In this document: positions 959 to 16,821 of the stretch, piece by piece
Position numbering within the stretch: the first letter of the stretch is position 1
Layout of the letters: every line of letters begins with the position of its first letter
IMG/VR virus record: IMGVR_UViG_3300037088_001224
Location: 1 to 27,623 of that record
Reading direction: 5' to 3' (one strand)
Length of the DNA stretch: 27,623 nt
Source: a virus
The notes under the pieces: model-generated
Seen by the model: only the letters and a program-made list of their open reading frames with translations
Told to the model about the DNA's origin: nothing
Database searches by the model: none
Position numbers and translations under genes: made by a program

Positions 959-974
959 CATTAATAAAAACACA

Positions 975-1031
975 TTGGCCTTTAGCACATTTTTATAGCG
1001 GAGCAAGTAACCTGTTTAAATCGCCGCTGTT
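975..1031 (-). ncRNA. SAM-II-like riboswitch aptamer, second copy
   Basis: Minus-strand RNA: P1 is AGCGG (1027-1023) with CCGCU (1002-998). The loop holds GAUUU and CUUGC, and the 3' strand holds AUAAAAAUGUGCUAAAG followed by GGCC. GAUUU, CUUGC and GCUAAAG are the hallmark conserved blocks of SAM-II (SAM_alpha) aptamers. Loop GGUU can pair with tail GGCC to close the pseudoknot. The copy is nearly identical to the one before metK across the core. No strong promoter is evident just upstream, so it may be transcribed by readthrough from metK. Confidence 0.72.
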
Positions 1032-1092
1032 ATTTATTTAGTCATGCTATGTTTCTCATCTCATGTTCATCGTCCAAATATTGTTTCCTTTT

Positions 1093-2277: not shown

Positions 2278-2320
2278 GTGATTTTCCTTTCTTTTGTAAA
2301 TGGTTGTTTTAAAGCCCTTA

Positions 2321-2353
2321 AAAACAAAAAACCCGTGCCAAAAGGACACGGGT
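2321..2353 (-). terminator. Attenuator terminator in the metK leader
   Basis: On the minus strand ACCCGTGTCC (2353-2344) pairs with GGCACGGGT (2339-2331) across a TTTT loop and runs into TTTTTGTTTTT. It stands between the SAM-II-like aptamer and metK and ends about 44 bases before the metK start codon, so it is the likely expression platform. Confidence 0.85.
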
Positions 2354-2371
2354 CATAAAATCAATTATGTT

Positions 2372-2430
2372 GCCAGCCTTTAGCACATTTTTATAGCGGA
2401 GCAAGTAACCTATCTAACTCACCGCTGTTA
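2372..2430 (-). ncRNA. SAM-II-like riboswitch aptamer of metK
   Basis: Minus-strand RNA: P1 is AGCGG (2426-2422) with CCGCU (2399-2395). The loop contains CUUGC immediately before CCGCU, and the 3' strand contains AUAAAAAUGUGCUAAAG. These match the conserved blocks of SAM-II (SAM_alpha) riboswitches, in which loop CUU pairs with the AAG of GCUAAAG in an H-type pseudoknot. Its place directly in front of metK supports SAM as ligand. Binding would be expected to favour the terminator just downstream. The assignment is by eye; a covariance-model search would settle it. Confidence 0.8.
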
Positions 2431-2435
2431 ATTAT

Positions 2436-2463
2436 ATGATACGCCTTTCTCAGATTTTGTCAA
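2436..2463 (-). promoter_or_regulatory. Likely sigma-70 promoter of the metK riboswitch transcript
   Basis: Minus strand: -35 box TTGACA at 2463-2458, 16-base spacer, -10 box TATCAT at 2441-2436. An overlapping TATAAT a few bases on gives an alternative. Transcription would start within a few bases of the 5' side of aptamer stem P1. Confidence 0.6.
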
Positions 2464-2520
2464 GACATATTACCTACTCCCGGGAAAACAATAATAGGAA
2501 GAAATGCTTGTTGCTTTCAC

Positions 2521-2556
2521 ATAGCGTTAGCGATCCGTTGGAACGCCTTGTTAACT
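2521..2556 (-). repeat. attC-like remnant at the end of the 232-residue gene
   Basis: Minus strand: the stop codon TAA (2553-2551) begins a run TAACAAGGCGTTCCAACGG, followed by ATCGCTAACGC. This closely resembles the 5' half of integron attC sites, and a cassette stop codon often lies inside that half. The complementary 3' half with a final GTTRRRY core is not seen; the sequence runs directly into the metK promoter region. It may be a truncated attC or a coincidental resemblance. Confidence 0.35.
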
Positions 2557-3249
2557 GGTTAACTTCCAAACCGACTCCGGATATGAAAGATAATAAATAG
2601 AATTGAAACCATAGGTATTACATATAATATTATCCTTTAAGCGAGCTTTGCCTGAATTGAACAGTCCGTCACTCACAAGGAGCAACCTTACGTCTGATAT
2701 ATTCTTTGAATACTTTTGAAGATTCTTTGCTTTCTCAAATATGACTCTTTCAATAATATCTTTATTAATAGGAGGCACAAAACCGACTTGATCAGACACA
2801 TAATTCCATCTTTTGTATTCGCCTAATTGATCTGAAAGTCTCAAAACATAAATTACACAGCCGTTATAGGGCTCAATCCGTTTTTGTTCAAACTCCGATA
2901 GTTGCGATGCCTCCTTTGTAATCGAGCTCAATAACTTATCGTGATGACCGATATAACCCAATAAATTAACTCTGATGGCGGAACCATTTGACTTGTAATA
3001 AACATCGGCCAATTTTTGAATATTCTTCAGGTTATTCTTTTCATTAGCTTTTTTTGTAGATCCCTTGCTTGACTCGTCGAGATATATTTCTCTGACCTCT
3101 AACCCAAATTTCCCTAATTCTGTTGTCACTATCAGGTCAGGCCAACTGACTTCATCAGGAGAAGGTGCTACGGCCCAAGACTCTTTAAGCAACTCACCTG
3201 TTCTTTTGGCATAAGTCAATTCAAGACTTTTCTGATTTTGCGAGGTCAT
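2551..3249 (-). CDS. Hypothetical protein, possible nuclease-like fold
   Basis: 232 residues, not recognised. The start at ATG 3249 opens MTSQNQKSLELTYAKRTGEL. No signal peptide or membrane segment is visible. The stretch WPDLIVTTELGKFGLEVREI (about residues 35-55) has a PD followed by a beta strand and an E-V-x-E step. This is loosely like PD-(D/E)XK nucleases, but the usual lysine is missing, so I do not assign that function. The remainder alternates lysine-rich helices and strands. It lies upstream of the metK promoter in the same direction. Its stop codon falls in an attC-like sequence, which suggests a mobile cassette or acquired gene. Confidence 0.65.
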   Translation of the reverse strand: MTSQNQKSLELTYAKRTGELLKESWAVAPSPDEVSWPDLIVTTELGKFGLEVREIYLDESSKGSTKKANEKNNLKNIQKLADVYYKSNGSAIRVNLLGYIGHHDKLLSSITKEASQLSEFEQKRIEPYNGCVIYVLRLSDQLGEYKRWNYVSDQVGFVPPINKDIIERVIFEKAKNLQKYSKNISDVRLLLVSDGLFNSGKARLKDNIICNTYGFNSIYYLSYPESVWKLTS

Positions 3250-3407
3250 GATTTATCTTTATACACAACTTTTTAATGAAGATGGATTTTTAACGATTAC
3301 TGGTTATAACATAGCATAAAAATAATATTTTGAAAAATAAGACTTACAGGAAGGAAGCATCACTCGGATGAATCGAATTAACTCTGATAATGAGCATTAA
3401 TTAAAGA

Positions 3408-3749
3408 TTAAAATTCCGGCACTTTGACGGATAGATGCTTTTCAAACCATTCCGCGACCAGGCGGCGGTGACAGTCTTCGCCGGGTTTTTCCCAACACAA
3501 CAAGATTACATCTTCGCCCAGATCGTCCAGGACTTTGGCTGGGTCTAGTTTACCAAGCACGTCGCGCTGATACTCTTTGACATATGCCGGCCAGGATAAA
3601 CCTGCCCTGAAGCGATTGAGTAAGTCTATCGACGGCGCTAATAAAATATACCGGCGGCGGCCAGCCCACCAGCGCGGCGGCCAGCGTGCAATGCTAACGG
3701 CGTTTGGATTGTCTGCTATTGTTTTATTTCCGAAATTTGATGTTTTCAC
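3408..3749 (-). CDS. DUF488 family protein
   Basis: 113 residues, starting at GTG 3749 behind AAGGGG. The C-terminal part LCWEKPGEDCHRRLVAEW matches the signature of DUF488, where a strand ending in C-x-E is followed by CHR and a helix. The N-terminal IARWPPRWW and the RYILLAPSIDLL region fit the family's small alpha/beta domain. The length is usual for a short DUF488 member. The biochemical role of the family is not established. It is a single gene with gaps on both sides, and its GC is higher than the flanking AT-rich DNA. Confidence 0.85.
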   Translation of the reverse strand: MKTSNFGNKTIADNPNAVSIARWPPRWWAGRRRYILLAPSIDLLNRFRAGLSWPAYVKEYQRDVLGKLDPAKVLDDLGEDVILLCWEKPGEDCHRRLVAEWFEKHLSVKVPEF

Positions 3750-3849
3750 TATTTACCCCTTAATTATATTATACTTTTTTTATTTGTGTTTATCAAGAGA
3801 AATATAAAATAATATCGCTTACTTATCATTATTTTTTCATTCTCAATTT

Positions 3850-4174
3850 TGGCATGTATTTTGTCCAATTCAATACGCGGCATTTAAAGGCTTCTCTTTT
3901 TTTTGTTGTTTTTTATCCCCGCCAACATAGTGGTGGTAAGGGTTTACGGTCGCTCTCTAACCCTTTATGGATATGGGTTTACTCTTACAATCGCCAACAT
4001 AGTGATAGTAAGGGTTTCTTTTTTTATCCCCCGCCAGCCCAGTGTGGTATTGAGCTAGACGTCGCTTTAAAATGGTCGCCACTCAATTATTTTAAAGTTC
4101 CCCTTGTGAGTATATGCATGTCATTTTTAAAGTATTTTTTGTCGTTTCTGATCTTGTGGCATGGTTTTTGTCCA
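3850..4174. repeat. 18-base imperfect direct repeat pair
   Basis: TGGCATGTATTTTGTCCA at 3850-3867 and TGGCATGGTTTTTGTCCA at 4157-4174 match at 16 of 18 positions and enclose the iteron-like repeats. The function is unknown. The pair could be att-like ends or protein-binding sites. A sigma-54 reading (TGGCA-N6-TTG) fails because the invariant GC at -12 is missing. Confidence 0.5.
3909..4060 (-). repeat. Iteron-like direct repeats
   Basis: On the minus strand CCTTACCACCACTATGTTGG (ending about 3922) and CCTTACTATCACTATGTTGG (ending about 3994) are near-identical and lie 63 bases apart, both followed by CG. A third, weaker unit TACCACACTGGGCTGGCG lies near 4032-4050. The first and third units are both followed by GGGGATAAAAAA. 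The uneven spacing argues against CRISPR; initiator- or regulator-binding sites are more likely. Confidence 0.6.
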
Positions 4175-4176
4175 CG

Positions 4177-4461
4177 TCATTTTGTCAAAAACTTTGATCG
4201 AGCAACAGGCCAAGTAGAAGGTGACCTCGGCGTTGCGGCCGATTTTGGTTCTATATCCGGATCAAAAAAATCTTCCGGGTTGACTTTCCTTTTTTCTATA
4301 AAATCTTTCAACGATTGTTCCGATACGCGAACGGAGCGACTACCGACCTTTATGGCCGTCAGAGATCCTTCAGCGATCAGGTCGTAAATATGCCGTTCTG
4401 TGCAGCTGAGCAAATCAGCTACAACATGCAGTGTCAAATATTTATCTTGGATCGATGTCAT
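4177..4461 (-). CDS. Excisionase/MerR-type helix-turn-helix DNA-binding protein
   Basis: 94 residues, starting at ATG 4461 with AAAGGAA upstream. Residues 8-60, running from YLTLHVVADLLSCTERHIYD through AIKVGSRSVRVSEQSLKDFI, form the typical winged HTH of the excisionase family (helix_turn_helix_17), in which a recognition helix is followed by an 'IKVGxRxxRxxxxxLxxFI' wing. The tail is short and disordered. It is the last gene of the leftward element 1 operon, 37 bases after the large terminase. It may act as excisionase or as a regulator; the sequence does not decide between them. Confidence 0.8.
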   Translation of the reverse strand: MTSIQDKYLTLHVVADLLSCTERHIYDLIAEGSLTAIKVGSRSVRVSEQSLKDFIEKRKVNPEDFFDPDIEPKSAATPRSPSTWPVARSKFLTK

Positions 4462-4498
4462 TCAATTCCTTTATTCACCTATCTCATAATGTGGAGCA

Positions 4499-6520
4499 TT
4501 ATCGCCGTCTCATCCATGATGATTTCGCAACCACCGGTTTTTCACTTTTCGATTTATTGTCCGCCGCGGATAAGGTTTGTTGTCTGAGACGCTCAGCTAA
4601 CAGCCGCAGACCGCCGCCGGGAAATTCCATCTCGACGCAAACCGACGCCAGGATTTCCGCATCGAACAAATGATTAGGACGTTGGTGAGGGTTAACCCAT
4701 TCCTCCGCGCCTTTATCGACAATTTGTTTTTCTTCGGCCAGGATTTGCTCAGCATAATCCGCTCCGGTACCGGCGTGCAGAAATGCAGCGCCAGGCAAAT
4801 TACGCGTGTCTTCCTGAGCGGCAAGTTGCAAACGATAATGGAACTGATCTTTGGCCTTTTGGGTATCGACATGCAAAAGCCTGAGCGCTGCGGGTAATTT
4901 TTTGCCCGAAGGAGTGGACATTATTGGTTCGCCAATTTTTAACATTCCCGGAAGTGAATTTGTTGCGCCCTTAGTTCCCCAAAGAGCGACGCCGCCGCGT
5001 CCGCGGTTTTTTATAAGCCAATAATACGCTTCTTCTGTCATGCTCATGCCCTCATATTTCTCGCCGCCGCCCGTATCCTTACAGGCGCGAAAGATACGCA
5101 TTTTGCGGTCTGTATCGCCGACCGGATAACTGGATTCGTAAATTAGTTTTTCGACTTCATCTTCCGTCTCCAGAAAGCCATAATGGATCAGCCAACTGGT
5201 GAGTTCCGCCGTCCATGCCCTCACAACAAACCAGAAGCCGTGTTTTTGCTTGTCAATGCCGCATGTCAGCGCAATCGCGGATTCGGGAACGGTCTGCGGA
5301 GCCAGGTCGCAGCGGGCCGCTAATATCTGCGCTTCGTTTTTACTGATGATGGTAAGTTTCCACGGTTCGGCCAAATGTTTATTGCAAAAGTCTTTCAATT
5401 TATTGATGTCGCTTTGGCCTTTTAGGAATGCTGCGGCAATGGTCGAAAAGGAAATAAATGGCGATATCCAACTGGGAATGTGGAAGCCGATCTTTGCCGG
5501 ACGGTTTATCCGCAGGTATTCCATGAGTTCAACTTCGCTTTTTCTGTCGCGCCATCGGCCATGACGAACAGCGCGGTCTCGGTCATAATCATTCCAATGC
5601 GCAGAACACTGAGGGCACTCATACCAGGCGAGTTTTTCGGATTCGATTGTTTCGGCGGGAAGGGAATGATAATCGCCTTTTTCATCCGGTTCCTTTTCGT
5701 GTTCCCATTTGATATTCTTAAAAATCATTTTGTGATGATGGTCGCAAAACGGGCAATTAACGTGATAATCGAAAATGACCTGGGCTTCTTTGGTTAATGC
5801 TTGCCAGATGTTTCCTGATTCGATTGTCGGCGTGCTGATTTTCCACTTTTTACAGTTGTGACGATATGTGATTGCACGAGCTTCTCCCAGGGATATCGGA
5901 TCGGTTTCACGCTTTCCGGCTGTGTCGGGGTATTTATCGATTTCATCAAATACCAGATACCTGATCGGTTTATTAGCCAGCCGGGAGGCGGAACGTGCCC
6001 ACGCCATGTAAAGTTGCATATGCTGGAGGCTAATGCGCAACATGCCCGCGTCATCGTCGATACCGGTCATGTAGGATGCCAGGCGCCGGCTGGATTTAAT
6101 CATGGGCTGGATTCGGTCCTGACAGTTTTCTTTGGCCGTCAATTCGTCGGGGTAGATAAAGAGCACGGGGCCAGGATCGCGGTCTATGGCATATCCGATG
6201 CAATTTAGGGTTGATTCCGAGGCGCCCACTTGAGGGGCTTTGCATAAGATAGTGGTTTGCACGGACGGGAAAAAAGAGGCATCCATGATTCCGGCCAAGT
6301 AGGGTGTAACTTCATTTTTCCATCGGCCGGGCAGCACCGACATTGTAACATTACGATGCAATTCAGCCCACTTTGATACTAATATTTTTTTATGCTTGCG
6401 GAAGATGCGCCGTTCACTTTCGGAAAATTTAATTCGGTGCCGGATTTCGCCTTCTTGCTTAAGCATTGCAGGAGGCAGCCAGGGGGAGTTGCGGGGTATG
6501 TGGATAGTGTTTACGTTCAT
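4499..6520 (-). CDS. Phage terminase large subunit, GpA family
   Basis: 673 residues, full length for the lambda GpA/PF05876 family. This is the packaging motor ATPase and the nuclease that cuts concatemeric phage DNA. The N-terminal ATPase shows a degenerate Walker A (CKAPQVGASEST, about residues 93-104) and Walker B YLVFDEIDKYP (about 188-198). A zinc-binding insert CPFCDHHHKM and CPQCSAHW follows. The C-terminal nuclease domain opens with TCGIDKQKHGFWFVV and continues through FRACKDTGGG. The start codon overlaps the stop of the small subunit (ATGA), so the two are co-translated. No portal or capsid gene follows, although these usually come directly after. Confidence 0.93.
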   Translation of the reverse strand: MNVNTIHIPRNSPWLPPAMLKQEGEIRHRIKFSESERRIFRKHKKILVSKWAELHRNVTMSVLPGRWKNEVTPYLAGIMDASFFPSVQTTILCKAPQVGASESTLNCIGYAIDRDPGPVLFIYPDELTAKENCQDRIQPMIKSSRRLASYMTGIDDDAGMLRISLQHMQLYMAWARSASRLANKPIRYLVFDEIDKYPDTAGKRETDPISLGEARAITYRHNCKKWKISTPTIESGNIWQALTKEAQVIFDYHVNCPFCDHHHKMIFKNIKWEHEKEPDEKGDYHSLPAETIESEKLAWYECPQCSAHWNDYDRDRAVRHGRWRDRKSEVELMEYLRINRPAKIGFHIPSWISPFISFSTIAAAFLKGQSDINKLKDFCNKHLAEPWKLTIISKNEAQILAARCDLAPQTVPESAIALTCGIDKQKHGFWFVVRAWTAELTSWLIHYGFLETEDEVEKLIYESSYPVGDTDRKMRIFRACKDTGGGEKYEGMSMTEEAYYWLIKNRGRGGVALWGTKGATNSLPGMLKIGEPIMSTPSGKKLPAALRLLHVDTQKAKDQFHYRLQLAAQEDTRNLPGAAFLHAGTGADYAEQILAEEKQIVDKGAEEWVNPHQRPNHLFDAEILASVCVEMEFPGGGLRLLAERLRQQTLSAADNKSKSEKPVVAKSSWMRRR

Positions 6521-7317
6521 AATATTTCTTCTACCGAGTCGCTTCGCTCCGGGGATCGTTCTCTGGGATTATTTTCATGATCCACAGGCTCACTATCAAT
6601 TACGACTTCATATTCCCTACTGCTCGCATAATGGTTGATGTGTTCATCAATATCGTTGCTCATCTTATTGATTAGCTCTCCCACTTTCCGCGTGTCGCCG
6701 CCGGACAACTCTATCCAATCGGAGACGTTAGTTTGCACCCAATGCTTTAATCCGGCAATTAATATCCCGGCGCGCGTGGCTAGTTCGATTTCCATCTGCT
6801 CACGGGGAATATATAGGCCGCGGTCTTTTTCGTAATTAAATGTTTCTCGGTCATTTTTGAGTGTGAGGTTTCTTAATTCGGCTTCGAGTTTTTGCCTTTG
6901 TAATTCATCGAGGCCCTCCTGAAGACGTTTGCCGGTCGCCTTTTTTTTGAGCCAGGTTTCTGCGTACTTCTCTATAGATTTTTGCGTAAAAGTTCCGTCA
7001 ACCTGTCTTAGCAATTTACGCTCAATCTTTATGTGCCGATTTAAGGTAGCTTTGGATGTTTTCCATCCATTTTCTTCAAGATATTTTAAAATGGATTTTT
7101 CCGTAGAATATTTTTCATCGGATTTTTCGCCGCCCTGAGCCAATCTGAATTTTTCCAGAGCTTCCTGCGCAGAGTTCATATTCCGATAATTTTGAGAAGA
7201 CGGGTCTTCCTTAACATTTATTTGTGTCTTCAAATAGGCATTAAACAGTAATATACCTTTACTCTTTATATCATCGGGTTTGCCGTCGATTAATTTTTCG
7301 AGTTCTTCTTTTTGCAT
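6517..7317 (-). CDS. Terminase small subunit-like protein (Nu1-type)
   Basis: 266 residues. It lies directly before the GpA-type large terminase and overlaps it by ATGA, which is the position of the small subunit that recognises the packaging site. Residues ~60-115 (SILKYLEENGWKTSKATLNR) look like a Nu1-type winged HTH. A long lysine/glutamate-rich helix (about 115-160) then leads to a globular segment REQMEIELATRAGILIAGLK that resembles oligomerisation regions of small terminases. The C-terminus is acidic and charged. The assignment rests on context plus the HTH; sequence identity to a named family was not tested. Confidence 0.7.
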   Translation of the reverse strand: MQKEELEKLIDGKPDDIKSKGILLFNAYLKTQINVKEDPSSQNYRNMNSAQEALEKFRLAQGGEKSDEKYSTEKSILKYLEENGWKTSKATLNRHIKIERKLLRQVDGTFTQKSIEKYAETWLKKKATGKRLQEGLDELQRQKLEAELRNLTLKNDRETFNYEKDRGLYIPREQMEIELATRAGILIAGLKHWVQTNVSDWIELSGGDTRKVGELINKMSNDIDEHINHYASSREYEVVIDSEPVDHENNPRERSPERSDSVEEIL

Positions 7318-7328
7318 AGTTTAATTTT

Positions 7329-8738
7329 TTATTTTACTTTTTTTTCGCCAATTGGCGAAATTACTTTTATTAGGTTCTTCCAAGTAATTTCCTGATCAGG
7401 ATGATTTAAAATATATTCCCGGACTTCTTTTTCGTGAAACACTAAATGGTTAATCCGGCCCGCGCCGCCGTATTTGCCATTACGCAAGAGGGTAAAACGT
7501 CCCGGTTCATTGATAATTTTAACGCCGGGATTGTCGCGCAGGAGCTTCCAAAGCTCAGCTAAAAGCGGTGGTGTGCCTTCTGGTGGCGACTGGATATTCC
7601 GGATACCGGCCTGCGCCGGTATGACGGCGGAGATCGTCAATACTGGCGGCAGCCCTGCTCTTATCCACTGTCCGAGGTCTATCCCCATTTGATACGCTTC
7701 GCCCGGATCCTTGCCTCTGGGTACGGGCCACCGATCGCAATTATCCGGAAATTGTTCCGCCCACCATTTAATGGCTCTCTGTGCCGCTGTCTTTCCGCCT
7801 CCCACATCACCATAATCAAGGGCGTTGAGTATCTGTACAGCCCCTTTTAAAATGGCGTAGGCGGCAGCGTCAGGTTTTCCTTCGAGTGTTCCCAAGGCGA
7901 CGGTTCCGGCCAGATCGGTGGACGCGGCGCAGGCGATGGCATCGAGTTCGGATTCGACAAGGATAAATGCCTTGCGTTCGGCGCCGATGACCATTGTGGC
8001 TTTAGATGAACCCCAAATAAAAATATAAGGATCGGGATATTCCTCGGTACGATGTTCTTCCGGTCGGCGGATTTTGATGCGAATAATTATTTGTTTTTGT
8101 TCCTGGATTCCCGCCTGCGCGGGAATGACACATAGAAGTGGAATTACTAATCCTCTGGGTATCCACAATTTGCGCGACTTCCCATTTTCTTTTTTCTGAT
8201 CAGGCAATCCCCACGCGGTATGGTGACGGAATATGTCCTTGCCGTCTTCGCCGGGATTCCAGCCGAGGCGCGCTTGTTCTGCGGCTTCGGCGCTAATGCC
8301 GCGGGAGGCCAGCCAGGACAAGGCAGATTTGTTTTCTTTAAGATTACCTTGTGCCCAGGTGATAAATTTCTGCGCCCTTTCCTGCCACAAATCGGTTGGG
8401 TTTTTATATTGTGTCGGTTCGAATTCTCTTTTTTCCGGTGGCGGGGTAAAGTCCGTCGGGCGATCCGCCATAGTTATATCAAGATAGGCGCAAGCATCTT
8501 TAAAATTCATTCCTTCAAAATCAATAAGGAACTGGATATTGTCACCCGCTTTCAGGCAAGACCGGCACCAATAACTCCCCTTACCATCGTTCTGGTTCGG
8601 CCAAATATGAAAGCGATCACTCTCCTTTGGTCGTCCCCCATCACCACATCCCGGGCACGGACCGTGCCATTCGCCGCCGTGCGTTGACGAAACTTTCTTA
8701 AGATTCACTTTTTTTACTGCCAGGTCGTAGGTATTCAT
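7329..8738 (-). CDS. Phage DNA primase with zinc-binding and TOPRIM domains
   Basis: 469 residues. The N-terminal zinc-binding primase domain has CPGCGDGG (about 28-35) and YWCRSCLKAGDNIQFL (about 57-71), a CHC2-like zinc finger. A TOPRIM domain follows with FILVESELDAIACA (about 258-271; catalytic Glu) and NALDYGDVGGGKTA (about 305-318; acidic pair). It would make primers for the SF3 helicase encoded upstream. Two palindromic repeats are inserted in frame, each coding VIPAQAGI: residues 204-211 between the domains and residues 372-379 after TOPRIM. Both sit in probable surface loops and keep the reading frame open. It starts 2 bases after the BRO-N gene ends. Confidence 0.88.
   Translation of the reverse strand: MNTYDLAVKKVNLKKVSSTHGGEWHGPCPGCGDGGRPKESDRFHIWPNQNDGKGSYWCRSCLKAGDNIQFLIDFEGMNFKDACAYLDITMADRPTDFTPPPEKREFEPTQYKNPTDLWQERAQKFITWAQGNLKENKSALSWLASRGISAEAAEQARLGWNPGEDGKDIFRHHTAWGLPDQKKENGKSRKLWIPRGLVIPLLCVIPAQAGIQEQKQIIIRIKIRRPEEHRTEEYPDPYIFIWGSSKATMVIGAERKAFILVESELDAIACAASTDLAGTVALGTLEGKPDAAAYAILKGAVQILNALDYGDVGGGKTAAQRAIKWWAEQFPDNCDRWPVPRGKDPGEAYQMGIDLGQWIRAGLPPVLTISAVIPAQAGIRNIQSPPEGTPPLLAELWKLLRDNPGVKIINEPGRFTLLRNGKYGGAGRINHLVFHEKEVREYILNHPDQEITWKNLIKVISPIGEKKVK
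7598..7628. repeat. In-frame palindromic 'VIPAQAGI' repeat, copy 2
   Basis: The palindrome is ATACCGGC (7603-7610), loop CTGC, GCCGGTAT (7615-7622), followed by GACG. On the minus strand it encodes AVIPAQAGIR inside the primase. It belongs to the widespread dispersed repeat class whose arms vary while the CTGC loop and the flanking ATGAC-like edge stay constant. Confidence 0.85.
8102..8132. repeat. In-frame palindromic 'VIPAQAGI' repeat, copy 1
   Basis: The palindrome is ATTCCCGC (8107-8114), loop CTGC, GCGGGAAT (8119-8126), with CTGG and GACAC edges. On the minus strand it encodes CVIPAQAGIQ in the primase between the zinc and TOPRIM domains. Relative to the other copy both arms differ but remain complementary, so this is a true paired repeat and not a conserved peptide. 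Confidence 0.9.
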
Positions 8739-8740
8739 AA

Positions 8741-9025
8741 TTATTTATGTGGCGGGTCAAATTGTTTGGGCCGCCACAGTTTTTTATTATTCGGATTGCC
8801 TCTTTTTACAGGAATACCTTCAATCAGATTTAGGGCAGCCGGCAAAATAGGGAGGATTTTCTTTTCATCATCATCTAATGCTTTCAAAGCCATTGTTGTG
8901 TTTGCGAGACCCAAGATACTACAGACATCTTTAGCAACCCACCATGGATCGTTCTGCTCGTCCAAAATGACACGTACGGGTCTGTCTTCGTAAATAAAGG
9001 GAATAATATTGGTGTTTTCGTTCAT
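8741..9025 (-). CDS. BRO-N domain protein, short
   Basis: 94 residues, starting at ATG 9025 behind AAAAGGAGAAAA. IIPFIYEDRPVRVILDEQND, then PWWVAKDVCSILGLANTTMALKALDDDEK is the BRO-N/phage antirepressor N-terminal domain, a DNA-binding fold common in phages. After about residue 60 the usual remainder of the domain and any C-terminal domain are missing. The protein instead ends in a basic tail KRGNPNNKKLWRPKQFDPPHK. This may be a truncated or naturally short form. It sits between the helicase and primase genes, so a role in replication control is possible but unproven. Confidence 0.8.
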   Translation of the reverse strand: MNENTNIIPFIYEDRPVRVILDEQNDPWWVAKDVCSILGLANTTMALKALDDDEKKILPILPAALNLIEGIPVKRGNPNNKKLWRPKQFDPPHK

Positions 9026-9040
9026 GATCTTTTCTCCTTT

Positions 9041-9145
9041 TTTATTATATGTAGATGGTTTATTTTTTAAAAATCTTCCTTTTCTTCTTCTTTTTTTTAT
9101 ATCTATTTATTATTATTATATATTTATATATATATTTAATATATA
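9041..9145. other. Very AT-rich tract within the replication genes
   Basis: About 100 bases made almost only of A and T, with repeated TATATTTATATATATATTTA-like runs, lie in the gap between the 78-residue ORF and BRO-N. It could be a DNA-unwinding element or replication origin of element 1, given the helicase and primase on either side. No clear iterons are seen beside it. Confidence 0.35.
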
Positions 9146-9191
9146 CCCCACCCCTTAGGGACAGTTATCGATATTTGCAGGGAATCTCTAA

Positions 9192-9428
9192 TCATTGATA
9201 ATTAATAAAACCGCTCTGGCGTTCATATAGCGAAAACGCTCCCCGCCTCCCTAGAAAAAATCCACAAATCAGACTATCTACTCCGATCACTGAATGATTA
9301 CGAATATTTATATGCTTTGAGCGGAAATGACGCAATTTTCTCATCTGTCCCTTGATTATAGGGACGAAGGGAGGCTTTGTTGACTTTTCCTTGTTTGTTT
9401 TAATAAATTTTAATAGATTTGCTTTCAT
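9192..9428 (-). CDS. Small hypothetical protein after the helicase gene
   Basis: 78 residues. ATG 9428 overlaps the helicase stop codon (ATGA), which favours translation by coupling. The N-terminal part is lysine/arginine-rich with no known domain. A 14-base sequence CTCCCCGCCTCCCT occurs both inside this ORF (9239-9252) and at the end of the helicase gene (9440-9453), so part of the ORF may be a local duplication rather than an evolved protein. I do not recognise it. Confidence 0.35.
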   Translation of the reverse strand: MKANLLKFIKTNKEKSTKPPFVPIIKGQMRKLRHFRSKHINIRNHSVIGVDSLICGFFLGRRGAFSLYERQSGFINYQ

Positions 9429-11080
9429 ACGTTTATAGCCTCCCCGCCTCCCTGATTAATGTCGCAAGTATCGCAAGGCGGTTCTGTGGGGGTTTTCTTT
9501 CCGAAGTGCAGATTCCGGCATTCAACACATTGAGTCGGCCATAAGGCAATGCCGTGATAAATGTTGCAGCCGTTGGATTTGGTTTTGCTGAATTTCATGG
9601 AGAGGTTTTTGCCGAATTTTGTGCCTGACCATTCTTTCTTTCCAATGTTTGAATTATACCAGGTGATGAATCGCGCATAGAGTATAGATGCTTTTTCATG
9701 AGCGCCCGGCTCAAGGAAGCAACATTCATCGATGAAGTCGGCTAGTAGATCCTCACGCCGGCGATATTCTTCGGACGCTTCCAGTATTGTACGAGGTGGA
9801 TTTAGTCCAACCCGCTGCCATTCCAAACATCCCTTGACCAGCCAAGCTAATATCCCTGACGCTTCTTTGCGGAGCTGATCACCAAGATCAAGTATGGCCC
9901 GGCGCTCGTATTCGTTTTGAGGTTCCCGATTAACAAAACTGATATCATGCGGGATTAAATGAAAGCGTTCCCAGAATGCTTTATCATTGGGAGGGGCTTC
10001 GGGCTGTGTGTTAGTCTGCAAAAATAGTTTGTGCGTTGGCTTAAATCTGATTGGGCGCTTGTCGTTCGGCCAACGGCCCTGCAGTTCGTCGCCGCCGGTC
10101 AACCATTTTATCTTTGCGGCGCTGAATCGCTGGTCGTCATCAACCTCAGCGGCAAAAGCGAAGCGTAAACCTTTGAGGCTCATGGTGTCGGGCGATGGCC
10201 CGGCGGAGGATCGGGAAAACTTCTGGGATAGAAGCATTTCTGATGGGATCGATCCAGCCAGGGAACCCATCGCGTGACTGATCGCCTCTACGATTTTGGT
10301 GCGGCCGTTCCATCCCGACTTTCCGAATAATACCGGAAACACTTTCTCCTGCGTCAACCCGGTCATGGCATATCCAAAAAGCCGCTGGAGGTATTCGACC
10401 ATTGATCTATCTGAATTTTCCTTGTCGCAGTTATGTATCTGCAACAGGGTTCTGTCCCAAAGGGGCGCTGGTTCGTCTATGTCTTTAAATTCAACAGGGC
10501 TGGCCAACGATAAGTAGTCAGACGGGCGGCCGGGCTTGATCTTTCCGGTGGTTAAGTCAATAACGCCATTGGCGCAGGGGAAAAGCATGGGCTTCTCGTC
10601 GAACTCTTCCCCGGCGATGGCTATCAGATTGTCTATGGTATGCGCGAATTTAAGAGTTGCGGTCCGGCGATTGTCGCCGCGTAACTGGCGCGCACGCTCC
10701 AGGAGTTTGTCACATTTTTTGCGGAGTTTATTTGATTCGTCCTTGTCATCGGTATTGGCACGCAGATCCGCTGTTGTTTTATATTCTTCAAGATATTTCT
10801 TGGCGACTTCATCAACCGCGGCTAAGGCTTCATCCAAAACGTCCAACGTCCAGAAATGTCCCTGCCATTTATACCATTCTCGTTGACTTTTACAGTAAAG
10901 GAATTTGTCCCGGAAAAGCGCAGCGTATAACATGCCGTCGCCCAGGGAATTGGAAAAAAGGCACTGCTGGATAAATTTACTATCTATCTGCGGTTTGTCA
11001 TCCACCGCCGGGATTCCGGCGGCTTCCAGCTCAACGCGATTTTCAACCAGCCTATGGATGTTGTCATCTTTGTCGCTCAT
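9425..11080 (-). CDS. Phage/plasmid SF3 helicase, P4 alpha/D5 type
   Basis: 551 residues. The N-terminal part contains the D5-N style region FPCANGVIDLTTGKIKPGRP and DYLSLASPVEF (about 167-196). The AAA+ SF3 helicase follows with P-loop FGKSGWNGRTK (about 252-262), a Walker B-like AFAAEVDDDQRFS, the sensor region FKPTHKLFLQTNTQPEAPPN, and AFWERFHLIPH. It would unwind DNA at the element's origin. The P-loop has R-T where the usual motif has K-S/T. The C-terminus has two CxxC pairs (CVEC, CDTC), suggesting a small zinc finger. Gene overlaps by ATGA link it to both neighbours. No primase catalytic domain is evident, which fits the separate TOPRIM primase downstream. Confidence 0.9.
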   Translation of the reverse strand: MSDKDDNIHRLVENRVELEAAGIPAVDDKPQIDSKFIQQCLFSNSLGDGMLYAALFRDKFLYCKSQREWYKWQGHFWTLDVLDEALAAVDEVAKKYLEEYKTTADLRANTDDKDESNKLRKKCDKLLERARQLRGDNRRTATLKFAHTIDNLIAIAGEEFDEKPMLFPCANGVIDLTTGKIKPGRPSDYLSLASPVEFKDIDEPAPLWDRTLLQIHNCDKENSDRSMVEYLQRLFGYAMTGLTQEKVFPVLFGKSGWNGRTKIVEAISHAMGSLAGSIPSEMLLSQKFSRSSAGPSPDTMSLKGLRFAFAAEVDDDQRFSAAKIKWLTGGDELQGRWPNDKRPIRFKPTHKLFLQTNTQPEAPPNDKAFWERFHLIPHDISFVNREPQNEYERRAILDLGDQLRKEASGILAWLVKGCLEWQRVGLNPPRTILEASEEYRRREDLLADFIDECCFLEPGAHEKASILYARFITWYNSNIGKKEWSGTKFGKNLSMKFSKTKSNGCNIYHGIALWPTQCVECRNLHFGKKTPTEPPCDTCDINQGGGEAINV

Positions 11081-11394
11081 ACTTTAATTTTTTCCTTTGC
11101 CCCGGTTCGTAAATACTCCGCAATTATTCCTGAAATCCCAAAGGCCCGATCAAAACCATAGTTATGTGGAGTTGGATTTTGGGGTTTCGCTACCCGTGTG
11201 CCGATCAGCTCCTGCCAAGGACCCACGGCCATTTTATCGGCGGCGACACCAGCTGGCCTACTCGCTGCGCTCTGTAGATACTGAAAAGGATTTTTTGCAC
11301 AGGGGGTGCGGGGTTGGGTACAACGCGGAAACTCTACGTCTACTCCCGTGATATTTACATTATAAAATTTTATGAGTTGATTAATTGAGAACAC
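11077..11394 (-). CDS. Hypothetical protein coupled to the helicase
   Basis: 105 residues, probably starting at GTG 11394 behind GGCGGGG. Its stop overlaps the helicase ATG (ATGA). No domain is recognised. It contains a moderately basic middle (ASRPAGVAADKMAVGPWQEL) and ends in a charged helix. Position and overlap argue that it is expressed, but the true start could lie further in. Confidence 0.5.
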   Translation of the reverse strand: MFSINQLIKFYNVNITGVDVEFPRCTQPRTPCAKNPFQYLQSAASRPAGVAADKMAVGPWQELIGTRVAKPQNPTPHNYGFDRAFGISGIIAEYLRTGAKEKIKV

Positions 11395-11530
11395 TTAACC
11401 CCGCCTAATCTATCGTACTGTAATTTATTTCATGATATTATTATCTCATTCGTTAAATGGGAAGCCTGCGGCGTCTCATTTCGGATTGAAAATTTAATAC
11501 CCGCCAATCTTTGAGGGATATTACTGCGCG

Positions 11531-12553
11531 TCATTTTATTTTTGGTGTATTCCTAACGCGCTCAATCAAGGCCTTTTTTTGCAAATCTGAAAGCAACCGG
11601 TGATAGGGAATAACATCATCCGCCAACCCCGTATCCACGGCGTTCTTACCAAACAACAGTCTGGCTTGTGTGTCCATGACAACTTTCTGATCAATCCCAC
11701 GATTTCGAGATATTGTTTTCACTAACAGTTCATAAATTCTTTCGGTTTCATTTTGCGCAGCAATCTGCGCAGTTGTTGATAGGGGAGCGTGCGGGTTAAA
11801 ATCGATCTTCCGAGTCCCAGAAAAAATAGGCGTATAATTTACCCCAAGATTTTTATCATATTGACTCTGGTCCACGTGCATGCAAATGACGCCGATTGAA
11901 CCGACGCCTCCGGTGCGCGGAAGAAATATTTTGTCCGCTGCGGAGGCGATGGCATAGGCGCCGGAATAAGCCATTTCGTTGACAACGGCGTAAATAGGCT
12001 TAGCACCCCGGGCATTGAAGATTTCATCAACTAAATCAAATACACCGGCTACTTCACCGCCAGGGCTGTCGATATCAAAAACGATGGCGCCAATGCTAGG
12101 ATCGGAAAGCGCGGCAAGGAATTGTTCCCTGATTGAATCGTAGGACGTGCCGCCGAAAATACAATCAATAATTAAGTCAATGAAATTTGCGTGATAATGC
12201 AAAATGCCCAGGATGGAAATGACGGAAATGGACCCATAGCGGATTGATCTATTATTTTGTTTTGCTTGTTGTATTGTTTTTAATTCCTCGTCAGGCACAG
12301 AGAGATGGGAGCTAGGTGGGCCATTAAGTGAAGCCAAAATCGTGGTTAAATTTTGTGGGCAAATCAGCGTTGGAATATTAGTTAGCCGTTTTGTAATAAG
12401 TTCCGCGGTGACATTTGCTTTATTTTTTTTAAAGTGCATTTTTATCATCCTCTTTAGTTTTACCAGACCGGCAACGATGATGGCAAATCCGACCGCGAGC
12501 ACGACGCGGCAACGACGTCGCCTGAACCTGTAAATATTTTTAAATTCAAACAA
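11531..12553 (-). CDS. Membrane-anchored S49 (SppA-like) serine peptidase
   Basis: 340 residues from TTG 12553 (AAGGAGAG 11 bases upstream). A shorter start at ATG 12439 has AGAGG 9 bases upstream and would remove the N-terminal anchor. The long form begins with a basic stretch RFRRRRCR and a hydrophobic helix VVLAVGFAIIVAGLV (about 17-31). The S49 core is clear: ISVISILGIL, IGAIVFDIDSPGGEVAGVFD (oxyanion/glycine loop, about 154-173), YAVVNEMAYSGAYAIASAAD with catalytic Ser197, and GGVGSIGV. S49 enzymes serve as prohead proteases in phages or as signal-peptide peptidases in cells. Here no scaffold or capsid gene adjoins it, so neither role is assured. Confidence 0.85.
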   Translation of the reverse strand: MFEFKNIYRFRRRRCRVVLAVGFAIIVAGLVKLKRMIKMHFKKNKANVTAELITKRLTNIPTLICPQNLTTILASLNGPPSSHLSVPDEELKTIQQAKQNNRSIRYGSISVISILGILHYHANFIDLIIDCIFGGTSYDSIREQFLAALSDPSIGAIVFDIDSPGGEVAGVFDLVDEIFNARGAKPIYAVVNEMAYSGAYAIASAADKIFLPRTGGVGSIGVICMHVDQSQYDKNLGVNYTPIFSGTRKIDFNPHAPLSTTAQIAAQNETERIYELLVKTISRNRGIDQKVVMDTQARLLFGKNAVDTGLADDVIPYHRLLSDLQKKALIERVRNTPKIK

Positions 12554-12568
12554 GGTATTGCGCTCTCC

Positions 12569-13156
12569 TTATTTTCTGTAAACCTCAGTATTCAAACCTG
12601 TCATCCGGTCAAAGATCCCGCGCGGCGAATTCGCGAGATTGAATTCACGCAGAACCTGAAGCGTCTCTATACTAAGGGTGACATAAAAACGCGGATCTGT
12701 TCGAACAATATCGAAGGCTTTATCAAAGCAGTCTATTATTTCATGAGACTTTAATAACAACGAGTCCAACTGTTCTTGCAAACCTTTCTTCACTTTAAAA
12801 ATCGCCGGCGATATAACATAATAAATTTTTTCCTTTGCGATTCTTACCATTTCCTCTTGCTGTGGGAGATACCTCACATCAATATCAACGATAATATCTT
12901 CCAAAATTTTTATCTCATCCAGCAGATCTTTCTGCATTTTATAATGAGATTCCATGTCATCAACAGTAGAAGGTAAATTTTTGAGTTTCATTTTCTTTTC
13001 AGAAATAGAAGTTACTGTTTTTCCCCGAAAATCTTTAGTTTCATTAACTTTGTTCAGGGCATTAATCAAAATATCAGTGTCTTCTTTAGATTGTGTCTTC
13101 TCGATGTGGTCAAAGATTTCTTTTGCGGTTCCTTGAGGCGTTGGTTCATTTTTCAT
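12569..13156 (-). CDS. Helical hypothetical protein
   Basis: 195 residues, starting at ATG 13156 behind AAGGAGAAA. It is rich in charged residues with long heptad-like stretches (EKKMKLKNLPSTVDDMESHY and the DEIKILEDIIVDIDV region), so a mostly helical and partly coiled-coil protein is likely. No signal peptide, membrane segment or catalytic motif is seen. It lies 15 bases before the S49 peptidase start region and is probably co-transcribed with it. Not recognised. Confidence 0.7.
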   Translation of the reverse strand: MKNEPTPQGTAKEIFDHIEKTQSKEDTDILINALNKVNETKDFRGKTVTSISEKKMKLKNLPSTVDDMESHYKMQKDLLDEIKILEDIIVDIDVRYLPQQEEMVRIAKEKIYYVISPAIFKVKKGLQEQLDSLLLKSHEIIDCFDKAFDIVRTDPRFYVTLSIETLQVLREFNLANSPRGIFDRMTGLNTEVYRK

Positions 13157-13193
13157 GTTGTATTTCTCCTTAAATTTTTTATTTTATCTAATA

Positions 13194-13244
13194 TTAAGAT
13201 ATTTCATCGATTCTAATTTCCTTCGAGTTTAATTTGTTTTCCAT
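13194..13244 (-). CDS. Micro-ORF, 16 residues
   Basis: MENKLNSKEIRIDEIS, with AGAGGAG 6-7 bases before ATG 13244. It lies just upstream of the 195-residue gene. The good ribosome site suggests that it is translated, as a leader peptide or a remnant. No function is known. Confidence 0.4.
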   Translation of the reverse strand: MENKLNSKEIRIDEIS

Positions 13245-13268
13245 GTTGTTCTCCTCTTATTATTTAAT

Positions 13269-13349
13269 TTATTTTTCGGCAGAGCCGGCGGTCGAAAAAA
13301 TCCGCGCGTTGGACCGACACGCGGCAAAATCTCCGCCGACCTCTGCCAT
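13269..13349 (-). CDS. Micro-ORF, 26 residues
   Basis: MAEVGGDFAACRSNARIF and STAGSAEK, from ATG 13349 to TAA 13271-13269. It starts 10 bases after the stop of the 20-residue ORF upstream. The ribosome site is weak (GTAGGTG). It could be coupled translation or decayed coding sequence. Confidence 0.25.
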   Translation of the reverse strand: MAEVGGDFAACRSNARIFSTAGSAEK

Positions 13350-13359
13350 TGGATGACAC

Positions 13360-13422
13360 CTACTCCGCGGTAAGCCGCGCAGCAAAACAGCGGGGCCAGC
13401 CGATTGATCGATCGTTTTCCAT
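13360..13422 (-). CDS. Micro-ORF, 20 residues
   Basis: MENDRSIGWPRCFAARLTAE, with AAAAGGAGA 7 bases before ATG 13422. It has the same MEN start and a similar ribosome site to the 16-residue ORF downstream. The DNA is GC-rich compared with the flanks. It may be a leader peptide or the truncated front of a lost gene. Confidence 0.35.
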   Translation of the reverse strand: MENDRSIGWPRCFAARLTAE

Positions 13423-13554
13423 TCTATTTTCTCCTTTTAGCGAGAGCGAGACGGTGACACCGCCGAATGCCACCGCCCCGCTTAACGACTGACAATGCCG
13501 GAAAAAGGCAAAGGATGAAAACCAAAACCGGCGTCGGCAGTTCGTGATTAATTA

Positions 13555-13848
13555 TCACTTCTCATCACCGTTTATTTTATCGCGGGAGCCAAGTTCTCTC
13601 GCAAGCCGTAAAATATCGGAATTGCGCCAAACCGCCACTCTTGGGGAAATGTGGATGGGTGGAGGGTATAAGCCTACCTTAATTCCATGAAACCACCCGC
13701 TCCGGCTGAACGGCAATATTTCAAGAACTTTGCCTATACGCATAAAACCGGCCTCAAGCATTTCATTGCCTAGATCGCCGCGTTGACATGCGAATTTTAG
13801 GAATGCGAACATGAATAAATACGATAAAAGTTTTTTTATAGATTTCAT
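13555..13848 (-). CDS. AlpA-like phage/satellite transcriptional regulator
   Basis: 97 residues, starting at ATG 13848 behind AAAAGGAG. Residues ~36-88, running from MRIGKVLEILPFSRSGWFHG through PPPIHISPRVAVWRNSDILR, form the AlpA/MerR-like HTH domain typical of P4-like satellites and prophages, in which it activates integrase or excision genes. The first 35 residues are unusual, with a hydrophobic stretch LLSYLFMFAFLKFAC; the native start may be a later Met (30 or 36). It lies upstream of the micro-ORF cluster and about 1.3 kb downstream of the integrase. Confidence 0.85.
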   Translation of the reverse strand: MKSIKKLLSYLFMFAFLKFACQRGDLGNEMLEAGFMRIGKVLEILPFSRSGWFHGIKVGLYPPPIHISPRVAVWRNSDILRLARELGSRDKINGDEK

Positions 13849-14067
13849 TTTATTCTCCTTTTGATGGTTATCATTGGACTCTAAAATACCTGTTTTATTT
13901 TTTTATGCAAGGAAAAAATCATTATAATATTAAATATTTAGGTTAGTTTCTCTCTTTTTTTATCGAAATAATAACCCAAAGCAATTTAACGTTTGATAAT
14001 TTATATAAAAACAGGCAGGTATTGTATGGTCCTATCAAAGTTCTAATCAGGGGAGGAATGGGAATTA

Positions 14068-14096
14068 AAAAAGGCCGGACGTGCCGGCCTTTTTTA
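14068..14096. terminator. Bidirectional intrinsic terminator
   Basis: AAGGCCGG (14071-14078), a 5-base loop, then CCGGCCTT (14084-14091), with an A-run before and a T-run after. On the minus strand it follows the 191-residue gene and would separate the integrase-side genes from the AlpA operon. Confidence 0.9.
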
Positions 14097-14103
14097 ATGA
14101 TAA

Positions 14104-14679
14104 TTAAATAATTTCTTCTTTACGTAGATCCTTCAGATGGTTGCGAATGGTTTCGGTTTTCTCATCACGTGCACAACCGTGGAACAAAATATATTTTGTC
14201 AATGCAAACCATGCACTATCAACTGTGGTTGTTCGCTCAATTCCGTATTTTTTTAACAATTGTGCCGCCTGTAAGGTGATGATAAGGGGTATTTCTGAAA
14301 TGGTGGGGGTTATTTTGTATGTTTTGGATTTTAGCGAATTATCAACTATCCGATGCATGAGCATAACAATTCCAGGAAATCCAGCAATGGCTTTGCGTTC
14401 GTCATCATTTGCCTTCCACCCTGAAAAAAGATGCCAAAAATGAGGCTGTAGTTTTCTTATTATTTGCTCGATCCTTTTTAAACGTTTCAAAAGACTTTCC
14501 ATTTCTCTGCGGCGAGTATCGTTTGACATCTCCCTTCTTGCATTTTCAAAAGGTATGCCTCGCTTATAATGATTAACAAGTTTTCCTAATTCAATCTGAA
14601 AAGCATCTCGCTGGTCTTTAGTTAAACCTTGTTTACTCATTTTATGATGATGAAATTCTGGTATAGTTCCTTCTGTCAT
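14104..14679 (-). CDS. Hypothetical protein
   Basis: 191 residues, starting at ATG 14679 with AAAAGGAAA upstream. The N-terminal half is very basic (RREMESLLKRLKRIEQIIRK) and helical. The C-terminal half has hydrophobic helices (IPLIITLQAAQLLKKYGIER) but no clear membrane anchor. A terminator follows the stop within 10 bases. It is transcribed after the 131-residue gene with an 11-base gap, so the two form a small operon. Not recognised. Confidence 0.7.
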   Translation of the reverse strand: MTEGTIPEFHHHKMSKQGLTKDQRDAFQIELGKLVNHYKRGIPFENARREMSNDTRRREMESLLKRLKRIEQIIRKLQPHFWHLFSGWKANDDERKAIAGFPGIVMLMHRIVDNSLKSKTYKITPTISEIPLIITLQAAQLLKKYGIERTTTVDSAWFALTKYILFHGCARDEKTETIRNHLKDLRKEEII

Positions 14680-14690
14680 TTGCTTTCCTT

Positions 14691-15086
14691 TTAGATCTTG
14701 CTGATCGAAGATTTACCACCTGAGATAATTTTCAAACCCCGGATTGCCATTGACGAATTGTTGCATCGTGGCAATCTTAATCGCGGACTCTTCGTTTTCT
14801 TCACTTTTTTTTCATCATCAAAAATTACTTCATGATCCTCCGTCGATATTGTCCGAACCCTTAAATTACACGTTATGGATATATCCATTAGAGCTAATTC
14901 CATTGAATCACCAAAATCTCTTGACGGTACTTCCGATATCTCTGCAAGTTTAAAAATATAATTAAGCGCTTTCACAACCTCATTATAATTATAAACTTCA
15001 ATATCTTTGTTGTATTTTTTTCCTTCGGAGCGAAAAAAGTTTTCAATCACAACGACCTTTTCCCCATTAAGGTATCTAATCTTCAT
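14691..15086 (-). CDS. Hypothetical protein
   Basis: 131 residues, starting at ATG 15086 with AAAGGAGG. The N-terminal two thirds looks like a compact alpha/beta domain (YLNGEKVVVIENFFRSEGKK; MELALMDISITCNLRVRTIS). The C-terminus is basic and serine-rich. No known domain or catalytic motif is seen. It lies 43 bases after the integrase stop and is probably co-transcribed with the 191-residue gene. Confidence 0.65.
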   Translation of the reverse strand: MKIRYLNGEKVVVIENFFRSEGKKYNKDIEVYNYNEVVKALNYIFKLAEISEVPSRDFGDSMELALMDISITCNLRVRTISTEDHEVIFDDEKKVKKTKSPRLRLPRCNNSSMAIRGLKIISGGKSSISKI

Positions 15087-15129
15087 CGAGTACCTCCTTT
15101 ATCATTTCTATAATATCCTTACGTTTTAT

Positions 15130-16362
15130 TTACCCTGTTATCTTCTTAAACGGAATAACCTTTGCACCTTGTTTCAATCCGTCCAAATAATCAGCCCATT
15201 TCTGCATCATTTTCTTTCGTTCGATAAGGTGTGATGTTCTGTTGTAAGCGCGGCCAAGGGGGTCTTTGACTGCATGAGAAAGCTGATGCTCAATAAGCTC
15301 AGGCCTTACTTGCAAGACCTCATCAAGAAGTGTTCGCGCTGTTGCTCTGAAGCCATGCGCGGTCGTTTCGCCCTTTTCAAACCCCATGCGCCTCAGCGCC
15401 GCAACAAGGGCATTATCGGACATTGGCCGATCAAAAGAACGGGCTGACGGAAAAATATAGCGGCTTGCACCGGTGAGTTCCTTAATCTCCGTCAATATCT
15501 CTATTGCCTGTTTTGACAGTGGCACCAAGTGCGGTTCTTTCATTTTCATTTTACTGGCGGGAATATTCCATTCGGCATTTTCAAAAGATATTTCTTCCCA
15601 TTCAGCATGACGCAATTCTCCTGGCCTGCAAAAAAGCAAAGGCAAAAGTCTCAACGCACACTTTACAACAAAAGACCCTTGATAGACGTCAATGGCCCGG
15701 AGTAGTTCGCCCACTTTTAGCGGTTCGGTGATTGCCGCCATATGACCTTTGTGGGGCGGTGGAATCGCTCCCTTGAGATCAACTGATGGGTCACGATCAG
15801 CGCGTCCCGTGGCTACTGAATATCGAAAGATTTGGCTACATGTGCTTCTTACGCGATGGGCGGTATCTAGCGTGCCCCTTAATTCGATGCGGCGCAACAC
15901 TACCAACAATTCTAAAGCTTTGATCTCTGCTATCGGCCTTGCCCCCATATACGGAAAAACGTCGTGCTCTAATCGTCTTAAAATTCTTTCAGAATGGCTC
16001 GGTTTCCATGTGTGCGTATATTTAGCAAACCATTCACGAGCTATGATCTCGAAGGTTTCAGTTGATTCAGTATTTGCTTGCTTTTGCGCCTTACGGAAGG
16101 CTCGCGGGTCAATGCCATGTGCTATCTGTGACCTTGCTTCATCGCGTTTTTGCCGCGCGTCAAGAAGGCTTATTTCCGGGTATGCGCCAAAAGCAAGAAG
16201 ACGAGCTCTACCATCAATTGTATATTTGAAACGCCACAATTTTGAACCGGCCGGTGTGACCAAGAGAAAAAGGCCGTTACCGTCAAACAGCGTCATCGGT
16301 TTTGATTGAAGTTTGACTTTCTTAATTTTCGTGTCCGTTAGTGGTACAATTTTTTTAGGCAT
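15130..16362 (-). CDS. int: P4-type tyrosine recombinase integrase
   Basis: 410 residues, full length. The N-terminal DUF4102 arm-binding domain is shown by LTDTKIKKVK, LFDGNGLFLLVTPAGSKLWR and LAFGAYPEISLLDARQKRDE. A SAM-like core-binding domain follows (about 105-190). The catalytic domain has Arg246 in CRPGELRHAEW, His336-x-x-Arg339 in HGFRATARTL, His363 in HQLSHAV, and the nucleophile Tyr373 in GRAYNRTSHL, so it looks active. It is encoded with its start facing the 3' end of tRNA-Ala 180 bases away, the usual arrangement for integration into a tRNA gene. Palindromic sites lie in the promoter region. Confidence 0.95.
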   Translation of the reverse strand: MPKKIVPLTDTKIKKVKLQSKPMTLFDGNGLFLLVTPAGSKLWRFKYTIDGRARLLAFGAYPEISLLDARQKRDEARSQIAHGIDPRAFRKAQKQANTESTETFEIIAREWFAKYTHTWKPSHSERILRRLEHDVFPYMGARPIAEIKALELLVVLRRIELRGTLDTAHRVRSTCSQIFRYSVATGRADRDPSVDLKGAIPPPHKGHMAAITEPLKVGELLRAIDVYQGSFVVKCALRLLPLLFCRPGELRHAEWEEISFENAEWNIPASKMKMKEPHLVPLSKQAIEILTEIKELTGASRYIFPSARSFDRPMSDNALVAALRRMGFEKGETTAHGFRATARTLLDEVLQVRPELIEHQLSHAVKDPLGRAYNRTSHLIERKKMMQKWADYLDGLKQGAKVIPFKKITG

Positions 16363-16374
16363 GCTGATTCCTCC

Positions 16375-16428
16375 TTTTTTGGTATACGCAATTTTTTTGG
16401 GTATACGTTAACCAAAATATATACCAAA
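16375..16428. promoter_or_regulatory. Inverted/direct repeats upstream of the integrase
   Basis: TTTTTGGTATACG at about 16377-16388, TTTTTTTGGGTATACG a few bases on, and the inverted form ATATACCAAAAAA at about 16419-16431. The repeated TTTGGTATA motif in both orientations suggests arm-type integrase sites or an autoregulatory operator in front of int. Confidence 0.55.
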
Positions 16429-16433
16429 AAATC

Positions 16434-16539
16434 TTGGATTATGTGTTAAAGCTTATAACACGTCTTTGGACTAAAAGCAACAAAAAACCAGCTATTTCTA
16501 ACTGGTTTTTGTACTTCTTTGGATTTTGTTGGATTATGT
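16434..16539. repeat. 11-base direct repeat between int and tRNA-Ala
   Basis: TTGGATTATGT occurs at 16434-16444 and 16529-16539, the second just past the 3' end of tRNA-Ala. The pair may mark integrase-binding or attachment sequence. I could not find a copy of the tRNA-Ala 3' end at the left side of the element. Confidence 0.4.
16480..16511 (-). terminator. Terminator of tRNA-Ala
   Basis: On the minus strand AAAACCAG, a loop TTAGAAATAG, then CTGGTTTTTTG forms a hairpin with a T-run, about 35 bases after the tRNA-Ala 3' end. Confidence 0.75.
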
Positions 16540-16541
16540 CT

Positions 16542-16617
16542 TGGTGGAGATGAGCGGGATCGAACCGCTGGCCTCTTGAATGCCATTCAAGCGCTCTCCC
16601 AGCTGAGCTACACCCCC
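16542..16617 (-). tRNA. tRNA-Ala (anticodon GGC)
   Basis: A 76-base cloverleaf with encoded CCA. The acceptor stem is GGGGGTG with CATCTCC, the D-arm is AGCTCAGCTGGGAGAGC, the anticodon stem is CTTGA/TCAAG with loop ATGGCAT (GGC), and the T-arm is GCGGTTCGATCCCGC. The integrase of element 1 faces its 3' end, so it is the likely attachment gene. Confidence 0.97.
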
Positions 16618-16808: not shown

Positions 16809-16821
16809 TAATAAATACAGT

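Follow-up and report, generated by a model that had tools for sequence, protein, structure and literature searches.

Can an integrated element that carries both subunits of a phage terminase and no portal, capsid or tail genes be a satellite that specifies its own packaging, or is it what remains of a phage after a deletion? The question is raised by a locus in the window analysed here, a stretch of 27,623 nucleotides of viral DNA, in which an earlier note had placed a compact satellite of about 12 kb (positions 4177-16541). Positions given below are those of the window unless a contig is named.

Ends and integration site

The ends of the element were located from the empty site in a genome of the same genus (G010; L162), in which a chromosomal PpiD-like gene, tRNA-Ala and tRNA-Leu adjoin each other with no insert between them. 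Mapping contig C198 of the host genome (G000) on G010 reveals two insertions, one of which is the studied element. It spans C198:4060-23609, equivalent to window positions -2984 to 16565 (19.55 kb), and both of its flanks on C198 match G010. The 3' end of the tRNA-Ala is repeated at both ends of the element (24/25 bp, with one base missing from the left copy) and the G010 empty site overlaps exactly the 25 bp of the att core at the integrase end. The boundaries proposed earlier are not upheld by this site. Position 4177 is rejected as an end of the element: by the empty site, the element extends past the HTH gene to include DUF488, metK and further cargo, and its left end lies approximately 3 kb beyond the left edge of the window. 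A search for a second att copy within the window found none because the partner copy is 3 kb outside it. The P4-type integrase beside tRNA-Ala is as the note described it. Its own integrase and att sites are features that the element shares with satellites in general.

The host is Syntrophales-like, and the named hosts of related loci include several Syntrophobacterales, Syntrophaceae and Syntrophus MAGs, among others. The host MAG is 89.7% complete with 5.9% contamination, in 218 contigs. The same locus is found at 100% identity in an IMG/VR record (L065).

Other integrated elements are present in this genome. The second insertion on C198, of 12.4 kb, lies in the neighbouring tRNA-Leu(CAA); it occupies window 16750-27623 and extends on to C198:36212. 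It has a 67-bp att repeat (97%) and an integrase of its own (C198:34709-35950), and also codes for a HigBA-like pair, a replication initiator, a baseplate hub and two head-morphogenesis proteins. No recognised terminase or capsid was found in it. Paralogues of the studied integrase (72% and 68%) head two other islands in G000, at tRNA-Cys and tmRNA (L012, G000:C14; L013, G000:C133), one of which is a type I restriction-modification island, and the other carries ParA and relaxase-like genes. The sequence found after the att core at integrase ends also has copies with no adjoining integrase (L018 on C214 and L019 on C138), which are possible island scars.

Gene content

The features of the element are listed in Table 1. 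All core genes identified by HMMs are on the minus strand, in agreement with the leftward orientation first reported, and the HMMs confirmed the integrase, AlpA, D5-type helicase, primase, TerS, TerL and Xis-like gene that had been recognised from the letters. This gene set is far beyond chance. Most core proteins are intact, while the BRO-N antirepressor looks truncated, and the AlpA-like regulator has a homologue in a related locus (L039, 46%).

Table 1. Features of the element and its integration site, in window coordinates unless a contig is named
Feature	Position	Strand	Evidence or remarks
att core at the integrase end; 3' end of tRNA-Ala(GGC)	16541..16565	(-)	G010 empty site
att partner copy, outside the window	C198:4060-4083 (window -2984 to -2961)		24/25 bp
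tRNA-Ala(GGC)	16542-16617		
P4-type tyrosine integrase, 410 aa	15130..16362	(-)	HMM; arm-binding, Phage_int_M and Phage_integrase
131-aa protein	14691..15086	(-)	no family match
191-aa protein	14104..14679	(-)	no family match
AlpA-like regulator, 97 aa	13555..13848	(-)	HMM; PF05930, 1.2e-5
All-helical protein, 195 aa	12569..13156	(-)	32% homologue at the same place in L037
S49 protease, head-maturation protease relative	11531..12553	(-)	phrog_53, 1.3e-80
105-aa protein	11077..11394	(-)	44% homologue in L037
D5_N/SF3-type replicative helicase, 551 aa	9425..11080	(-)	HMM
BRO-N antirepressor, short (94 aa), probably truncated	8741..9025	(-)	HMM
CHC2 primase, 469 aa	7329..8738	(-)	HMM
TerS, terminase small subunit, 266 aa	6517..7317	(-)	HMM; phrog_57, 2e-6
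TerL, GpA-type, 673 aa	4499..6520	(-)	HMM; GpA_ATPase 1e-64, GpA_nuclease 3e-43
HTH_17/Xis-like DNA-binding protein, 94 aa	4177..4461	(-)	95% identical in L037
Conserved non-coding region, 427 bp	3750..4176	(-)	motif order A, C, B, B, A
DUF488 protein	3408..3749	(-)	gene directly before portal in several full phages
50-bp junction sequence	3346..3395	(-)	96% identical in L037
Distal cargo inside the att sites	1..3249	(-)	uncharacterised 2551-3249, metK 1093-2349, uncharacterised 1-813

No portal, capsid or tail families were matched by HMMs in the element, including the cargo beyond the HTH gene, which was also searched with Pfam and PHROGs. A portal profile that was positive in six phage or prophage controls (G142, G073 and four phage records) found no portal in G000, L036, L037 or L039. 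The complete virion structural module, the absence of which is general among satellites, is therefore missing, as is the head and tail module that follows the terminase in lambda-type prophages. The earlier statement that there are no structural genes holds for portal, capsid and tail; it overlooked a homologue of the head protease, the S49 gene.

The cargo continues for 3 kb past the window, with a Sel1-repeat protein and genes without assigned function. The metK gene and the adjoining uncharacterised gene (window 1-2349) lie inside the att sites, and the same pair, 91% identical in nucleotides, is found beside mobile-type genes in G010 (L161, G010:C9). A single metK was found in each of the two genomes (G000 and G010), and therefore an essential gene may ride on islands.

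Relatives and loss of the structural module

TerL relatives were searched for in viral contigs and GTDB genomes, and their relationships were estimated in a quick tree with SH-aLRT support. The nearest relatives (87-91% identical) all fall in one clade, in which the window sequence groups with L037/L038 and L039/L040 (SH-aLRT 100) and which is nested among full phages. The full phages have TerL sequences 61-75% identical and the gene order helicase, primase, TerS, TerL, in some followed by HTH and DUF488, and then portal and protease/capsid. The comparisons show that the element is descended from phages of this helicase-primase-TerS-TerL type.

The most informative relative is L037 (17.0 kb; TerL 91%), an independent contig that shares the core and the odd S49, likewise has no portal after DUF488 and differs in its integrase. 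The layout, whose recurrence the note had put forward as a check, recurs in this contig; searches of the taxonomic order for close copies (155 genomes, the same set as at class level) found G000 only. The cargo of L037 is different (RadC and a Listeria-Bacteroides/NHL repeat protein). The 50-bp sequence after DUF488 is common to both elements, with the RadC gene between DUF488 and this sequence in L037, and different cargo then follows. An exact 39-bp match of the junction sequence was found in just these two elements in a scan of viral contigs. Because the same S49 variant and a homologous junction are present in two elements with different integrases, the structural loss appears to be ancestral and not local, and the common ancestor of the two very probably already had no structural module. 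A one-off local deletion is accordingly rejected as a full account. Beyond the studied element the loss is visible in L037 only (and in L038, which is shorter and has an identical TerL), as L039, L040, L047 and L051 end too early after TerL.

Close relatives with a head and tail module after the terminase had been named as what would reduce the element to a simple deletion. Such relatives exist at 61-75% TerL identity only, and L037 at 91% has the same loss. In named phage and plasmid collections TerL relatives were distant only (<60%, best approximately 31% among the matches listed). Distant GpA-type TerLs (38-41%) were also seen in L060 (G092) and L059 (G086), and no portal was detected near either. 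In L060, TerL is followed in turn by an HTH gene, a tail-fibre-like gene and chromosomal genes. These loci are possibly other elements without structural genes.

Constraint on the terminase and a candidate packaging site

Both terminase subunits show strong purifying selection (dN/dS approximately 0.06). The values for TerL are 0.062 (window and L037) and 0.082 (window and L039), that for TerS is 0.055 (window and L037), and dS in the comparisons with L037 is approximately 0.8-1.0. A terminase without use would not have stayed so conserved since the structural loss.

The HTH gene and DUF488 are separated by 427 bp that share 92% identity with L037, compared with 86% in TerL and 68% at its third positions. 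A homologous non-coding region follows TerL/HTH in full phages (L093/L106, L086, L080 and L045). It contains motif A (TGGACAAAAACCATGCCA), motif C (GTGGCGACGATTTTAGAGCGTCG), which is a spaced dyad, and repeats B (AAACCCTTACCACCACTATGTTGGCGGGG). Exact motif A was found in three viral contigs, namely the studied element, L045 and a 53.3-kb record carrying a portal. We propose this region as a candidate cos/pac packaging site, cos-like and with putative TerS-binding repeats; it could instead be a replication origin or a site of moron insertion.

The S49 protease and its neighbour

The S49 protease has kept Ser197 and Lys249, both of which are invariant in 11 aligned relatives, and is without the C-terminal scaffold region of the longer phage versions. 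Each of the two satellite proteins carries a hydrophobic helix at its N terminus (mean hydropathy of 2.3 and 2.7, with aligned phage copies at no more than 1.8), and the structural model (mean pLDDT 68) matches the signal peptide peptidase SppA (E 2.8e-13). The window and L037 proteins are 73% identical and are encoded at the same place upstream of the helicase, where no S49 gene was seen in the full phages compared. We read the protein as a membrane-anchored derivative of a relocated and reshaped head protease. An ordinary head protease was judged unlikely, with no scaffold region, a membrane helix and a position away from any portal. Interference with a helper or with the cell envelope seems a more likely role than capsid maturation. 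A structure search with the neighbouring 195-aa helical protein gave no significant fold match. In the adjacent tRNA-Leu element, a protein with a head-morphogenesis domain (phrog_324; 18420-19043) also has an N-terminal membrane helix, and is the second membrane-anchored head protein besides S49.

Comparison with known satellites

The element resembles the cfPICIs, which are likewise integrated satellites and have a TerS and a TerL of their own, but these also encode a major capsid protein, head protease, portal and connectors (PMC10690885), whereas the element has only the altered S49 homologue: the portal profile found no portal in it, and it has no capsid or connector families. With the Gram-negative PICIs it shares an integrase, an AlpA regulator, primase and replication genes, an att site and the lack of structural genes (PMC6092414). 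These PICIs, however, carry at most TerS or use a helper terminase, and the element has TerL too. P4-like satellites have a P4-type integrase, AlpA and their own replication, but P4 DNA is packaged by the helper terminase (PMC10690885), and the primase and helicase of the element are separate genes and not fused. No P4 capsid-size (Sid) or transactivation genes were recognised in the element among HMM families, some of its genes being without a family. The Pseudomonas satellite prophage AH14b (16.8 kb) likewise has an integrase, an AlpA-like gene and a primase and no structural genes, but no terminase was identified in it (PMC4936722). In Streptomyces satellites TerS and TerL occur together with capsid genes (among PMC4936722, PMC10690885, PMC6092414, PMC11389934). 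The lambda-type phages of the same TerL family (L045, L086, L093 and the G142 and G073 prophages) have the same helicase-primase-TerS-TerL order, and some have HTH, DUF488 and the non-coding motif region, but portal, protease and/or capsid and tail genes follow DUF488 or TerL. In the literature covered, which does not extend to the primary descriptions of cfPICIs, tycheposons and VEIMEs, no satellite was found that combines a complete terminase with the lack of both portal and capsid.

Origin and proposed mode of transfer

The element is real and bounded, and comes from a small lineage that persists without structural genes and has kept the packaging motor. We think it probable that the element is a satellite that arose from a phage by structural loss and uses its own terminase to package itself. 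Much of the satellite reading in the earlier note thus stands (a bounded integrated element, a full terminase pair, no structural module and a layout that recurs in L037), while its boundaries and the total lack of head genes do not, and redirected packaging by the terminase has no support from a helper in this genome. On this proposal, infection by a helper, or induction, would lead AlpA and the HTH protein to switch on integrase-driven excision, and the helicase and primase would replicate the excised circle. TerS and TerL would then recognise the element's own packaging site and cut the concatemer, and the motor would dock on the portal of procapsids from a related phage, which would also supply the tail and lysis.

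Several other explanations were weighed. A defective lambda-type prophage, in decay after the loss of its structural genes and not transferred in particles, is an unlikely alternative. The portal lies directly after DUF488 in full phages of the same type and BRO-N looks truncated. No helper was found either: the co-resident helper prophage that the note would have looked for did not appear, as no lambda-type portal is present in the host MAG, which is 89.7% complete. This lack has a parallel in a cfPICI that was mobilised by none of the 17 prophages resident in its native strain (PMC11389934). However, a decaying prophage is difficult to reconcile with a loss held in common with L037 at a homologous junction, with the low dN/dS of both terminase subunits over a dS of 0.8-1.0, with mostly intact core genes, or with clean att repeats and an empty site.

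An integrative island mobilised in another way, its terminase having a non-packaging role or serving generalised packaging of host DNA, seems to us improbable. Integrases of the same family do drive non-phage islands in G000, and metK and other cargo are aboard; yet TerS and TerL are equally constrained and the non-coding region has its match at the same position in full phages, and therefore sequence-specific packaging is indicated. That an assembly or binning artefact locally removed the structural genes is scarcely credible: the MAG is fragmented and partly contaminated, but the IMG/VR record is identical at this locus, the layout recurs in L037 and G010 matches on both flanks.

We further propose, tentatively and as possible rather than likely, that a satellite of this kind would form a distinct class, of direct phage origin by structural loss, in which the ancestral terminase and packaging site are kept, the motor docks on foreign procapsids and the head protease has become membrane-anchored and, with its helical neighbour, blocks or reshapes the helper. 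The known satellites compared here use a helper large terminase, sometimes with their own TerS, or have their own terminase together with their own capsid. With a whole motor but neither portal nor shell, the lineage would be a test of whether packaging can be specified by a terminase at a portal interface with which it has not co-evolved; it would also be a concrete example of how a phage can give rise to a satellite by losing its structural genes.
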